Origin: Aeromicrobium camelliae
GTDB taxonomy: Bacteria > Actinomycetota > Actinomycetes > Propionibacteriales > Nocardioidaceae
Direction of reading: 5' to 3'
Length of the DNA: 64,000 nt
Assembly (NCBI RefSeq): GCF_003850045.1
Contig: NZ_RQJX01000009.1
Span: 1-64,000, forward strand
Position numbers and translations under genes: made by a program. Shown here piece after piece: positions 84-21,407 of this stretch. The notes under the pieces are model-generated. The model saw nothing but the letters and a program-made list of their open reading frames with translations, ran no database searches and had not been told where the DNA came from. Numbering within the stretch: the first letter of the stretch is position 1; every line of letters begins with the position of its first letter.

Positions 84-899
84 CTAGACCGCGTCTCCTG
101 GCTCCGGCGACTGCTCCTCGTCCGGACCGGGCAACGGCACGGACGGGCCCCCGCGACCGACGGGGGCGACCCCGGCGATCGCGGCCTCCACACGGGACCG
201 TAGCTGGGCCTCATACTCCAGGACGGGCCGCAGGGCCTCCTGATACTGAGCGCCGTACGTGAAGGACGCGGCGCGGCCGGCATCGAGCTCCTGAGCGGCC
301 ACGGTGGCCGCATCGATGACGTGCTGCAGCGCTCCGCTCACTCCGGCCGCGAGTTGCTCCTGGCCCGGCGGCACCGTGACGGCCTCGAACTGCGCCTTGA
401 CCTGCTCCATGAGCGGGATGAGCTCGGCACGCACCGGGTCACCGCTGGCGACCGGGCCGGACACGACGCTCTGCGGGATGTCGGCGTCCAGCGCATCCTG
501 TGCTGCCGCGACGAACGGTGCCGCGGTCGCCCACTCCTCCAAGACGTCGACCGCGACGCCGAACCGCTCCTCGATCGCCACCCGACGATCCAACGCCGCC
601 CGGTACGCGCTGGAGTTCTCAGCGCCGTAGGCGCCCACGTCAGCGGGTCGCGGCAGCTCGTCGCGCAGGCGAGTGGCGGTCTCGACGAGTGCTCCGCCCT
701 CCCCCTGTGCCGCAAGCATCGCCAGTTCGGCGTGAGCCTCGTCCTGGTAGGTGGCGAGGTCCTCGCTGTAGCGGAGCGCAGCCGCGTCGGCCTGCTCGAC
801 CTCGGTCGACTTCTGGTGCCGGTCGACGAGGTAGATGCCGGCCCCGGCGACCAGCAGGAGGACGAGCGTGAGCCCGCCGACGGTGGGACGCAGCTTCAT
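84..899 (-). CDS. membrane-anchored hypothetical protein
   Basis: I do not recognise this 271-residue protein. It has one hydrophobic N-terminal segment (about residues 8-25, no lipobox cysteine), followed by a soluble, Ala/Glu-rich and probably helical domain, and a Pro/Glu-rich tail. This fits a protein anchored in the membrane with its bulk outside the cell. The ATG at 899 overlaps the TGA of cimA by 4 nt, so the two are probably translationally coupled. The same frame stays open far upstream, but that part is a shadow of cimA. The coupling gives no functional clue, because nothing in the sequence suggests a role in isoleucine synthesis. Confidence 0.8.
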   Translation of the reverse strand: MKLRPTVGGLTLVLLLVAGAGIYLVDRHQKSTEVEQADAAALRYSEDLATYQDEAHAELAMLAAQGEGGALVETATRLRDELPRPADVGAYGAENSSAYRAALDRRVAIEERFGVAVDVLEEWATAAPFVAAAQDALDADIPQSVVSGPVASGDPVRAELIPLMEQVKAQFEAVTVPPGQEQLAAGVSGALQHVIDAATVAAQELDAGRAASFTYGAQYQEALRPVLEYEAQLRSRVEAAIAGVAPVGRGGPSVPLPGPDEEQSPEPGDAV

Positions 900-2521
900 C
901 GCAGCGGCGTCACCTGGTGGAGCCGGAGCCCGTAGGTCACCGCATCGACGAGGGCCTCCCACGAGGCCTCGATCATGTTCGCGCCGACCCCGACCGTCAC
1001 CCACGCGTCCTTGCCGTCGCTCGTCTCGATGAGCACTCGGGTGACCGCATCGGTGCCGTGGCCTTGGTCGAGGATGCGCACACGGAAGTCGATGAGGTGG
1101 AAGCGGGCGACGTCCGGATAGACCTGCTCGATCGCGAGCCGCAGGGCGTGGTCGAGAGCGTTGACGGGGCCGTTGCCCTCGCCGATGACAGCCAACCGGC
1201 GTCCGCCCGCGGTGATCTTGACGGTGGCCTCGGCCAGCGCGCCCCCCGCGGACGCCGAGCCGACGGACTCCGCGATGACCCGCCACGACTCGATGTCGAA
1301 GTACGTGGGCCGGGCCCCTTCGACCTCCTCCAGGAGCAACAGCTCGAAGGAGGCGTCGGCCGCCTCGAAGGTGTAGCCCTCCTGCTCCATGCTCTTGACC
1401 CGGTCGGTCACCCGGGCCAGCGTGGCCGGGTCCCCGGAGAGGTCGATGCCCAGTTCGCGGCCCTTGAGCTCGATCGTGGCGCGACCGGCCATCTCCGAGA
1501 CGAGCAGCCGCATGTCGTTGCCCACGAGCGCCGGGTCCATGTGCTGGTAGAGGTCCGGATCCACACGGATCGCGCTGGCGTGGAGGCCGGCCTTGTGCGC
1601 GAACGCCGAGACGCCGGTGTACGGCTGCCGGGCCGACGGCGGGTAGTTGGTGATCTCGCTGATCGCATGCGAGATGCGGGTCGCGTCGCGCAACGCCCCC
1701 TCCGGCATGACGTTCATGCCGAGCTTGAACTCCAGGTTCGCAACGCACGTGACGAGGTCGGCGTTGCCCGTGCGCTCGCCGTAGCCGTTGATGCACCCCT
1801 GCAAGTGCGTCGCCCCGGCCTGCACCGCCGCGATGGAGTTCGCGACGGCGCAGCCGGTGTCGTTGTGGGCATGGATGCCCAGCCGCGCCCCGGTCGCGTC
1901 CGCGACCTCGGCGACGATGTCGGCCACCCAGTGCGGCAGCATCCCGCCGTTGGTGTCGCACAGCACCGCGACCTCGGCTCCCGCTTCGGCCGCTGTCCTC
2001 ACGACCTCGAGCGCGTACGCCTTGTTGTCGAGGAACCCGTTGAAGAAGTGCTCGCAGTCGAGGAAGACGCGCTGCCCCTCCCCGCGCAGGTGAGAGACGG
2101 TGTCGCGGACCATCGCGAGGTTCTCCGCCAACGTGGTGCGCAGCGCGAGCTCGACATGCCGGTCGTGGCTCTTGGCGACGAGCGTCACGACCGAGGCGCC
2201 GCTGTCGCGCAGGGCCGCGACAAGCGGGTCGTCGGCCGCGGCGACGCCGGCGCGTCGCGTCGCGCCGAAGGCGGCGAGGGTCGAGCGGCGCAGGTCGAGT
2301 TCCTTGGACGCGAGGGCGAAGAACTCGGTGTCCTTGGGATTGGACCCGGGCCAGCCACCTTCGATGTAGCCGACACCGAGTTCGTCGAGGTGGCGCGCGA
2401 TCGTCAGTTTGTCCTGGACCGAGAGGTTCAGGCCCTCCTGCTGGGCGCCGTCACGCATCGTCGTGTCGTAGACGTGGAAGTCGCCCGGAGTGAGGGTGCC
2501 GGAGGCGGGGATGCTGCTCAT
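896..2521 (-). CDS. cimA: citramalate synthase (CimA family)
   Basis: This 541-residue protein belongs to the isopropylmalate/citramalate synthase (DRE-TIM metallolyase) family. CimA condenses pyruvate with acetyl-CoA to give (R)-citramalate, a threonine-independent route to 2-ketobutyrate and isoleucine. The N-terminal barrel opens with YDTTMRDGAQQEG (residues 18-30, with the catalytic Arg and metal-binding Asp), and the metal-binding HAHND motif follows around residue 210. A C-terminal LeuA-type regulatory domain completes the usual length. The opening TMRDGAQQEG and overall form fit the CimA subgroup better than LeuA, but 2-isopropylmalate synthase activity cannot be excluded by eye. An Ile-rich leader peptide and terminator lie directly upstream, supporting control by isoleucine. 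The downstream membrane protein overlaps by 4 nt. Confidence 0.93.
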   Translation of the reverse strand: MSSIPASGTLTPGDFHVYDTTMRDGAQQEGLNLSVQDKLTIARHLDELGVGYIEGGWPGSNPKDTEFFALASKELDLRRSTLAAFGATRRAGVAAADDPLVAALRDSGASVVTLVAKSHDRHVELALRTTLAENLAMVRDTVSHLRGEGQRVFLDCEHFFNGFLDNKAYALEVVRTAAEAGAEVAVLCDTNGGMLPHWVADIVAEVADATGARLGIHAHNDTGCAVANSIAAVQAGATHLQGCINGYGERTGNADLVTCVANLEFKLGMNVMPEGALRDATRISHAISEITNYPPSARQPYTGVSAFAHKAGLHASAIRVDPDLYQHMDPALVGNDMRLLVSEMAGRATIELKGRELGIDLSGDPATLARVTDRVKSMEQEGYTFEAADASFELLLLEEVEGARPTYFDIESWRVIAESVGSASAGGALAEATVKITAGGRRLAVIGEGNGPVNALDHALRLAIEQVYPDVARFHLIDFRVRILDQGHGTDAVTRVLIETSDGKDAWVTVGVGANMIEASWEALVDAVTYGLRLHQVTPLR

Positions 2522-2568: not shown

Positions 2569-2594
2569 AAAAAAGCCCCCCGGGGTCGGGAGGC
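2569..2594 (-). terminator. cimA attenuator terminator hairpin
   Basis: On the minus strand a 7-bp stem (GCCTCCC pairing with GGGGGGC, one G-U pair, 6-nt loop) is followed at once by six T residues. It lies between the Ile-rich leader peptide and cimA, about 50 nt before the cimA start. It therefore terminates early transcription rather than the end of a gene, which is the layout of a transcription attenuator. Confidence 0.82.
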
Positions 2595-2620
2595 GGCGCG
2601 TCGAGTGGGTACCCGGCGCG

Positions 2621-2650
2621 CTAGGCGATAATGATCGCGGTGATGGTCAC
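2621..2650 (-). CDS. cimA leader peptide, MTITAIIIA
   Basis: A nine-codon ORF starts with GTG at 2650 and ends with TAG at 2621. It encodes M-T-I-T-A-I-I-I-A: four of nine residues are Ile, three of them consecutive. A terminator hairpin with a T-run follows 26 nt downstream, then cimA. Ribosome stalling at the Ile codons when charged tRNA-Ile is scarce would be expected to favour an antiterminator and let cimA be read; this mechanism is inferred from known branched-chain attenuators in Actinobacteria. No Shine-Dalgarno precedes the GTG, but a TAGACT -10-like box lies 8 nt upstream, so the leader is probably read from a leaderless or near-leaderless transcript. Confidence 0.82.
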   Translation of the reverse strand: MTITAIIIA

Positions 2651-2658
2651 GAGACAAA

Positions 2659-2667
2659 GTCTAGACT
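2659..2667. promoter_or_regulatory. divergent overlapping -10 boxes
   Basis: The palindromic core AGTCTAGACT supplies TAGACT on both strands. On the minus strand (2664-2659) it lies 8 nt before the cimA leader GTG. On the plus strand (2662-2667) it lies 10 nt before the ATG at 2678. No convincing -35 box is visible for either. Both transcripts would have almost no 5' untranslated region, and the two promoters would compete for the same DNA. Confidence 0.5.
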
Positions 2668-2677
2668 GAAGCTCACC

Positions 2678-3367
2678 ATGACCACCACAGCCGTCCCACG
2701 CCCCGGACACGTCGACATCATGTACGCCGTCGTGACGGCTGAGGCGCTCGACCGTGACGACCCCCTGCCGGAGGGCCTCGAACCGCTGCTCCGGCGCAAC
2801 GGGGCGTCGGAGGAACTGATGGCGATGTGGCGCGAGCGTCCGCACGCCCAGGTACTCGTCCAGGTCGCGCCGCTCGCCGGGGCGGGCGAGGCGCACGTGC
2901 AGATGCGCTCGGCCGCGTTCTCGCTGGCCGCTGAGCACGACGGTCTCGTCGTCGACCTCGCGCTCCCGCGGTTGCTGGAACCGCCGACGGGTGCCGTGCG
3001 GCTGGAGTACGCGGACGCGTGGGTGCTGGTGCACTACGACGTCGCGTCCCGCGGCGTGCTCGGCACCCGCGGTCTGGAGTCCTTCGGACTGCCCGAGCTG
3101 TGCGTGAAGGTGCCTGAGGGCGCGGAGGCGGCGATGGTCGGGGCCGTCACCAGCGGTCTGACGCATCGCCTGCTGACCGAGTGGCCGCATGTCGACCCGG
3201 TGGGCCCGGCGGTCGTCACATTGCGTGACATCGCCTACGGGCTCGGCGATCCGCAGGCCGATACGATCGGCACGGAGCGCCGCGTGCGGGTCGAGATGGG
3301 CTACGACGACGTCGCGCACGAACTCGACGTCACGCTCCTCGACAACCCCGCGGTCTTGTTCCGCTGA
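2678..3367 (+). CDS. hypothetical protein, 229 aa
   Basis: I do not recognise this protein. It is soluble, with no signal peptide, membrane segment or obvious catalytic motif, and reads as an alternating alpha/beta domain. The same frame is open far upstream, but that part is antisense to cimA. The ATG at 2678, just behind the divergent -10 box, is the natural start. It is the only plus-strand gene in the first 7 kb and separates the cimA transcript from the leuB-ilvE-aspA run. Confidence 0.75.
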   Translation: MTTTAVPRPGHVDIMYAVVTAEALDRDDPLPEGLEPLLRRNGASEELMAMWRERPHAQVLVQVAPLAGAGEAHVQMRSAAFSLAAEHDGLVVDLALPRLLEPPTGAVRLEYADAWVLVHYDVASRGVLGTRGLESFGLPELCVKVPEGAEAAMVGAVTSGLTHRLLTEWPHVDPVGPAVVTLRDIAYGLGDPQADTIGTERRVRVEMGYDDVAHELDVTLLDNPAVLFR

Positions 3368-21319: not shown

Positions 21320-21360
21320 AAAAAAAACCCCCGGCCCGAAGGCATTCGAGGGAGACGCTG
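21320..21360 (-). terminator. ilvB attenuator terminator
   Basis: On the minus strand a GC-rich hairpin (CGAA-TGCC-TTCG at its centre, extended by CTCCC against GGGGG) ends in eight T residues (21327-21320). It lies between the leader peptide and the ilvB start, so it is an attenuator. The exact pairing of the alternative antiterminator is not resolved by eye. Confidence 0.8.
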
Positions 21361-21377: not shown

Positions 21378-21407
21378 CTAGTGACGTACGAGAATCAGGG
21401 CATGCAC
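21378..21407 (-). CDS. ilvB leader peptide, MHALILVRH
   Basis: A GTG at 21407 opens a nine-codon [12 protein letters not shown] ending in TAG. The run Leu-Ile-Leu-Val contains all three branched-chain residues, as expected if the operon must respond to any of them. A terminator with a T-run follows, then ilvB. Attenuation of ilvBNC by such peptides is established in Corynebacterium and predicted widely in actinobacteria; here it is inferred from the layout. There is no ribosome binding site, and the inferred transcription start coincides with the GTG. Confidence 0.85.

Follow-up and report, generated by a model that had tools for sequence, protein, structure and literature searches.

Transcription attenuators of the enteric trp, his and ilvGMEDA operons join regulatory codons to a terminator under the control of ribosome position, and the same logic is proposed here for an element ahead of an actinobacterial citramalate synthase gene (cimA), whereas the enteric leaders differ in having a ribosome-binding site before them and in forming overlapping 1:2, 2:3 and 3:4 helices. 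Closer counterparts exist in actinobacteria, where attenuators of ilvB, leuS and trp, plus the LEU element of leuA, have already been published (PMC1262725); the accessible text of that paper also covers candidates for tryptophan, cysteine and leucine metabolism and ileS T-boxes, and contains neither cimA nor citramalate. In Streptomyces, the IlvL leader of ilvBHC and the LeuL2 leader of leuS resemble the cimA element in that branched-chain codons stand close to a hairpin which is followed by an intrinsic terminator, and their uORFs are leaderless by RNA-seq, whereas the cimA leader is leaderless by prediction (PMC8079986, PMC1262725, accessible portions). These leaders precede ilvB or leuS and carry Leu/Val/Ile or Leu codons, while the cimA leader carries Ile. 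The main text of PMC8079986, which names the IlvL and LeuL2 peptides and counts eight leaders, mentions neither cimA nor citramalate in its accessible part, and in that of PMC12452182 citramalate is mentioned beside the T-boxes of Bacillota leuA.

The Corynebacterium ilvB-II and ilvBNC leaders share with the cimA element a first hairpin (P1), a second hairpin (P2) that is the terminator, and a uORF running into P1 (PMC10272879, PMC11857589). In the available portions of these papers, the C. ulcerans ilvB-II element represses a reporter in rich medium (PMC10272879), terminator mutations raise ilvB expression in C. glutamicum, and the antiterminator hairpin of C. glutamicum ilvBNC adjoins the terminator with a three-base overlap (both PMC11857589). 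The M. tuberculosis ilvB1NC leader of 166 nt holds four mixed sensor codons, LVVI, as against the Ile sensor of cimA, and its short terminated transcript has been mapped; a ribosome at the stop codon is described as masking the antiterminator or ON structure and a stalled ribosome as permitting it, a ribosome footprint of 26 nt being used (PMC13236596, in part). Mutually exclusive structures were predicted for that leader (PMC13236596), and an antiterminator pairing forms part of the Corynebacterium models, depicted in one way by PMC10272879 and in another by PMC11857589, whereas folding yielded none for cimA. Sensor codons a few nt before P1, and a P1 flush with the P2 terminator, are common to the cimA element and the actinobacterial ilvB and leuS attenuators. 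A literature search, with most subscription papers outside its scope, found no leader peptide tied to an actinobacterial citramalate synthase, and in Rfam no family matched the cimA element; as far as these searches reach, the cimA attenuator is new, and its ilvB and leuS sisters were already known.

Leader, hairpins and cimA in the window

The window, that is, the whole stretch of 64,000 nucleotides that was analysed, belongs to a genome of 3.06 Mb (G000), probably of an Aeromicrobium to judge by its nearest named cimA relatives (its own record aside), and carries at 896..2521 on the minus strand the gene cimA for a citramalate synthase of 541 aa, which scores 624 bits against the equivalog TIGR00977, above the curated cut-off of 450. 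The leader ORF MTITAIIIA* was present ahead of it, as the first-pass annotation had read, at 2621..2650 (minus), with a GTG start, the TAG stop at 2623-2621 and, from 2650 to 2621, the codons GTG-ACC-ATC-ACC-GCG-ATC-ATT-ATC-GCC-TAG. The sensor codons ATC ATT ATC (Ile-Ile-Ile) occupy 2627..2635 (minus), the last one ending 5 nt ahead of P1, a GC hairpin at 2596..2621 (minus; GCGCG-C-CGGGU...ACUCG-A-CGCGC) that was recognised from the minimum-energy fold (z -2.01; 5 of 200 shuffles equally low) and from covariation, and whose first base in the window is the final base of the leader stop codon. The P2 terminator stem-loop (GCCTCCC-gacccc-GGGGGGC) follows at 2575..2594 (minus), and a U-tract of six T, read from the sequence and also recovered by the terminator search, at 2569..2574 (minus), so that the whole terminator spans 2594-2569; the search of 501 bases returned three overlapping versions of it, where shuffled sequence gave 0.2 on average. 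The terminator described earlier was thus borne out in its stem and its six T, and its stem was corrected from 7 bp to 8 pairs, 7 of them GC. The cimA ATG at 2521 (minus) lies downstream of both P2 and the U-tract. A -10-like hexamer, TAGACT, was read from the sequence at 2658..2663 (minus), 7 nt before the leader GTG; neither this motif (2663-2658) nor P1 (2621-2596) had appeared in the first-pass annotation.

The same layout was observed a second time in the window, where an ilvB leader, MHALILVRH*, with Leu, Ile and Val codons, lies at 21378..21407 (minus) and has its own hairpin and terminator, as recognised by eye. The longest ilvB ORF of the window starts at 21345, inside the terminator of this leader, and that start is therefore probably too far upstream. 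On the other side of the cimA leader promoter, a divergent gene (MTTTAVPRPGHVDIMYAVV...), at about 2678-3367 on the plus strand of the window, starts some 15 nt away, and in some relatives aspA is found directly upstream of the cimA leader in place of the divergent gene. A role of CimA as a stand-in for a missing threonine deaminase was ruled out, a TIGR01127 protein above cut-off being encoded at G000:C7:94737-95864.

Conservation, spacing and covariation of the element

Matches resembling cimA, with weak matches to related synthases included, were detected in 143 of 148 genomes, and upstream regions were examined for 110 of the 124 full-length cimA matches, the window's own included, the 14 left out all belonging to genus g28. 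Of the 110 regions, window included, 92 carry the leader, P1 and P2 ahead of cimA; the other 18 were dropped, the search pattern having found no terminator in them. Conservation of the Ile codons and the terminator in close relatives, which had been named beforehand as the test able to refute an Ile-tuned attenuator, was found in most members sampled at the levels of genus, family, order and class. Because the nearest Ile codon sets the reading frame, codon -1 is Ile by construction, and codon -2 is Ile in 84 of the 92 elements. The last Ile codon stands 5 nt from P1 in 71 elements and 6 nt in 19, so that 90 of 92 share one of these two distances; the position of the leader stop relative to P1, by contrast, varies from -3 to +19, which indicates that the position of the Ile codon, not that of the stop, is held fixed. 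The spacer between P1 and P2 measures 2-3 nt in 89 of these 92 elements and in 95 of 96 in a second alignment, the P1 loop ranges in length from 2 to 58 nt, and the P2 core offers 6 of 6 complementary pairs in some register in 90 of 92 elements and 5 in the other two. Very long P1 loops, of up to 58 nt, were observed at L146, L148 and loci like them (f22, probably Streptomyces); the cimA leader MLSFAMIIGSRRAGPQ* extends into P1 there, and the short P1-P2 spacing is retained nonetheless.

The P1 and P2 helices covary. In alignment A1 (MAFFT, 92 elements), 91.0% of cells are paired, compared with 38-62% when the 3' partners are slid, and both partners have changed in 100 cells, where shuffling gave 32.2 on average. 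Paired cells reach 96.1% in alignment A2 (96 matches, 100 other loci, aligned to the model), none of whose rows has its last 60 nt in common with any row of A1, and 94.8% in alignment A4 (66 elements of cimA, ilvB and one leuA). A conserved paired RNA ahead of a biosynthetic gene is also what a metabolite riboswitch or T-box controlling cimA would present, with the ORF being incidental; such control is very improbable and was rejected on the Rfam results, since against Rfam 15 the element gave no match even at E<=10, the sole match in 801 bases being a chance sRNA elsewhere, and nine related loci gave none at the gathering score. The conserved columns, moreover, are mainly codons, the stop and the stems rather than loops.

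In 82 of the 92 elements, the chosen leader start is preceded at a distance of 6-8 nt by an xAxxxT motif of -10 type, compared with 34 of 665 background start-like codons further upstream, the choice of leader start having favoured starts with such a motif. The spacing of the motif to the GTG suggests that the leader mRNA is probably leaderless. A pattern search of the upstream regions found no element before cimA in four Aeromicrobium genomes (L041, L044, L046 and L047). The same -10 motif lies there 7 nt before the apparent GTG of cimA itself, and these loci look like cases in which the entire leader was lost and cimA became leaderless, transcribed from the same promoter; their lack of the element counts against the attenuator.

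Sensor codons and downstream genes across class and phylum

The covariance model R1, whose E-values are rough like those of model R2 below, matched 240 of 394 genomes of the class, which widens the local observation to a class-level element. In a sample of the same size and handles, TIGR00977 was found at E<=1e-90 in 310 of 394 class genomes; when the two lists were compared by hand, 236 genomes had both an R1 match and cimA, and 74 of the 310 cimA-bearing genomes had no R1 match, which counts as evidence against the attenuator. The four genomes with an R1 match and no cimA are G157, G180, G197 and G505, and the element of G197 (L169) precedes ilvB. CimA lies downstream at all of the 30 top-ranking R1 loci, the window among them, and at 38 of 40 further loci picked from the list, the two exceptions being this ilvB leader L169 and L154, which has no gene label. 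The leader of L154 (G324) reads MFALVIIM*, with no CimA in the fetched stretch and a downstream ORF that had no NCBIfam match. In a phylum-wide sample, R1 matched 40 of 296 genomes, and 29 of these loci, window aside, comprised 12 before cimA, 14 before ilvB, 1 before leuA and 2 without a gene label; the leuA leader found in this way ends in ...NLLLT*, and its LeuA is TIGR00973 (712 bits vs 598.7). Weak R1 matches elsewhere in the window's own genome (E about 5) were disregarded.

Model R2 consists of P1 and P2 only, from the stop codon on, and holds no sensor codons; it matched 134 of 396 phylum genomes, and this one model matches leaders of cimA, ilvB, leuA and leuS. The known Streptomyces leader peptides IlvL MRTRILVLGKRVG (L399) and LeuL2 MRAVRLLLSEPR (L401) were recovered by it as positive controls. 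None of 15 checked loci (leuS, leuA, L373 and Streptomyces-type leaders) is part of the R2 training alignment. Seventy R2 loci were inspected, 30 fetched with the search and 40 picked by hand with a preference for matches not already known; 67 of the 70 gave a leader and three gave none, 14 had no gene within 420 nt, several of them with IlvB farther on, and the set includes one place twice (L348 and L394), the window itself (L344) and places already met in earlier steps of the analysis. A few query proteins, run in tblastn, supplied the gene labels, and NCBIfam confirmed part of them: leuS in five of six cases, leuA at six loci and cimA at L373.

The leucine tRNA ligase gene leuS carries the same element with Leu codons at L375, L383, L398, L401 and L407, and also at L369, whose label is based on a tblastn match of 34%. 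The two-hairpin element with Leu-only sensor codons was observed before leuA at L321, L378, L381, L388, L389, L394 and L395, with leaders such as NLLLT*, LTLLLLS* and EELLLR*, and these elements precede two LeuA types, TIGR00973-like and TIGR00970-like. The best NCBIfam match was 2-isopropylmalate synthase for L378, L381, L388, L389 and L395 (partial proteins) and for L321, which is the same place as L339; the leuA label of L394/L348 comes from tblastn at 80-81%, and the ORF submitted from there to NCBIfam matched nothing. Several R2 or R1 matches lie away from branched-chain genes and were taken as chance or unexplained, such as L408 (ribosomal protein L10), L392 (isocitrate lyase) and L376 (an aminotransferase), and likewise L372, L386, L387 and L403 (without gene label), L336 and L325. 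The leader of L325 reads ...RVLLIT*, and the long ORF closest downstream is a phenylalanine gene, that of a prephenate dehydratase.

Differential codon usage was observed within the roughly seven codons before P1 at the R2 loci. The cimA leaders (n=12) contain 28 Ile, 0 Leu and 2 Val codons; the leuA leaders (n=8, one place twice) 29 Leu, 1 Val and 0 Ile; the leuS leaders (n=6) 17 Leu, 1 Val and 1 Ile; and the ilvB leaders (n=27) 19 Ile, 48 Leu and 65 Val. Within the genus Aeromicrobium, 40 of 45 cimA leaders were counted, leaving out L015, L016, L018 and L019 (start ambiguous or unusually distant) and L011 (another genus), and gave 137 Ile, 24 Val and 8 Leu, with Ile-Ile in 39. The ilvB leaders of the genus (the best 30 of 88 genomes searched) gave 12 Ile, 60 Leu and 61 Val, with Ile-Ile in none, the script having kept the candidate densest in I, L and V, which biases these counts toward the three together and not between them. 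The Ile specificity of the cimA leaders is supported by the contrast with the sensor codons of ilvB, leuA and leuS. The earlier reading of a leader tuned to Ile alone fits the window leader and is not strictly true of others, as Val often stands before the Ile run in relatives.

On a simpler reading, the uORF would be a plain one whose Ile codons sense nothing, and P2, as a constitutive partial terminator, would simply reduce the expression of cimA. A terminator between promoter and gene reduces expression by itself, and the four Aeromicrobium genomes described above manage without the element; this reading nevertheless leaves unexplained both the fixed distance from Ile to P1 and the match of codon to gene, seen in I28 L0 V2 for cimA, 29 of 30 Leu for leuA and 17 of 19 Leu for leuS, and it is regarded as improbable.

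Proposed mechanism and its meaning

The element is read, with a probability of roughly 80%, as a translation-dependent transcription attenuator of cimA that would sense charged tRNA-Ile. RNA polymerase would start at or near the leader GTG and, given the -10 spacing, a ribosome would load on the leaderless 5' end. With ample Ile-tRNA, the ribosome would pass ATC-ATT-ATC and reach the stop at or inside the P1 foot, where its footprint would hold P1 open, so that P2 would form and transcription end before cimA. Under a shortage of Ile-tRNA, the ribosome would stall at the Ile codons, 5-6 nt short of P1, and allow P1 to fold ahead of it; P2 would then fail and cimA would be transcribed. By usual footprint lengths, a ribosome at the stop would cover the P1 5' arm and one on the first Ile codons would leave P1 free. 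P1 would thus be an ON hairpin, as suggested by the ON/OFF scheme of M. tuberculosis ilvB1 and by the abutting hairpins of C. glutamicum ilvBNC; the direction of the switch we infer from the published ilvB leaders, and cimA transcription would be expected to rise on Ile starvation. Two mutational results speak against the sensor: mutation of the ilvB leader codons in S. coelicolor is reported to have left regulation unchanged (PMC1262725), and in the C. ulcerans ilvB-II reporter a single codon mutation was tried, likewise without effect (PMC10272879), which makes a sensor role of single codons tentative also in the known relatives.

The mutually exclusive antiterminator that the first-pass annotation had proposed to look for was the part that failed to appear, as folding yielded no conserved alternative pairing. 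In folds of RNA truncated ahead of the P2 right arm, upstream pairing of the P2 left arm has a mean probability of 0.25-0.33 in three ribosome states, and this probability exceeds 0.5 in 20 of 92 sequences without a ribosome, in 5 of 92 with the ribosome at the last Ile codon and in 3 of 92 with it at the stop. Folding across the 92 sequences gave no consistent upstream partner of the P2 left arm, equilibrium folding being blind to kinetic and steric exclusion. Complementarity between the P1 loop and the P2 right arm was no higher than with shuffled loops (mean z 0.11 over 85 sequences, 5 below -1.5), and a GCAAG/CUUGC contact from P1 loop to P2, noticed by eye in some relatives, was dropped as absent from others. 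P1 and P2 coexist in the full-length folds of 15 sequences.

A classical three-part attenuator, in which a conserved antiterminator pairs with one arm of P2 and is short, variable or tertiary enough to have been missed by folding, would be in line with the antiterminators described for known ilvB leaders (PMC10272879, PMC11857589, PMC13236596, available portions), with the 20 sequences whose left arm pairs upstream, and with some single P1 loops that by eye can pair with the P2 right arm. Set against the absence of a consistent left-arm partner, the lack of surplus loop complementarity and the joint presence of both hairpins in full-length folds, it appears rather unlikely. The preferred, tentative explanation of how P1 would disable P2 is a steric one, since in free RNA the two hairpins are compatible and nearly all spacers measure 2-3 nt: the P1 helix, flush against the 5' base of P2, would stop P2 from zipping up in the exit channel of the polymerase.

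Across the Actinomycetota, the same arrangement may represent a re-addressable switch, in which a codon cassette lies 5-6 nt before a hairpin that is itself 2-3 nt from a terminator, with Ile for cimA, Leu for leuA and leuS, and Val/Leu/Ile for ilvB, and in which, with no base-paired antiterminator, the ribosome would decide on P1 and P1 would sterically block the closing of P2; this phylum-wide picture is put forward tentatively, at somewhat below even odds. A common module with exchangeable codons and no visible antiterminator could be more novel than the cimA attenuator itself. The family would also be informative on the blocking of a terminator without a competing helix, and the same hairpins with different codons offer natural experiments on the re-addressing of attenuators between amino acids. 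The earlier interpretation of an Ile-tuned leader-peptide attenuator and of a CimA that serves isoleucine is supported by these sequence comparisons. The isoleucine role of the CimA-type enzyme is upheld by sensor codons that match the gene product across cimA, leuA, leuS and ilvB: the control RNA of cimA appears to read Ile codons, and the leucine and shared-pathway genes their own codons, which provides regulatory evidence, separate from enzyme homology, that the actinobacterial TIGR00977 enzyme serves isoleucine.
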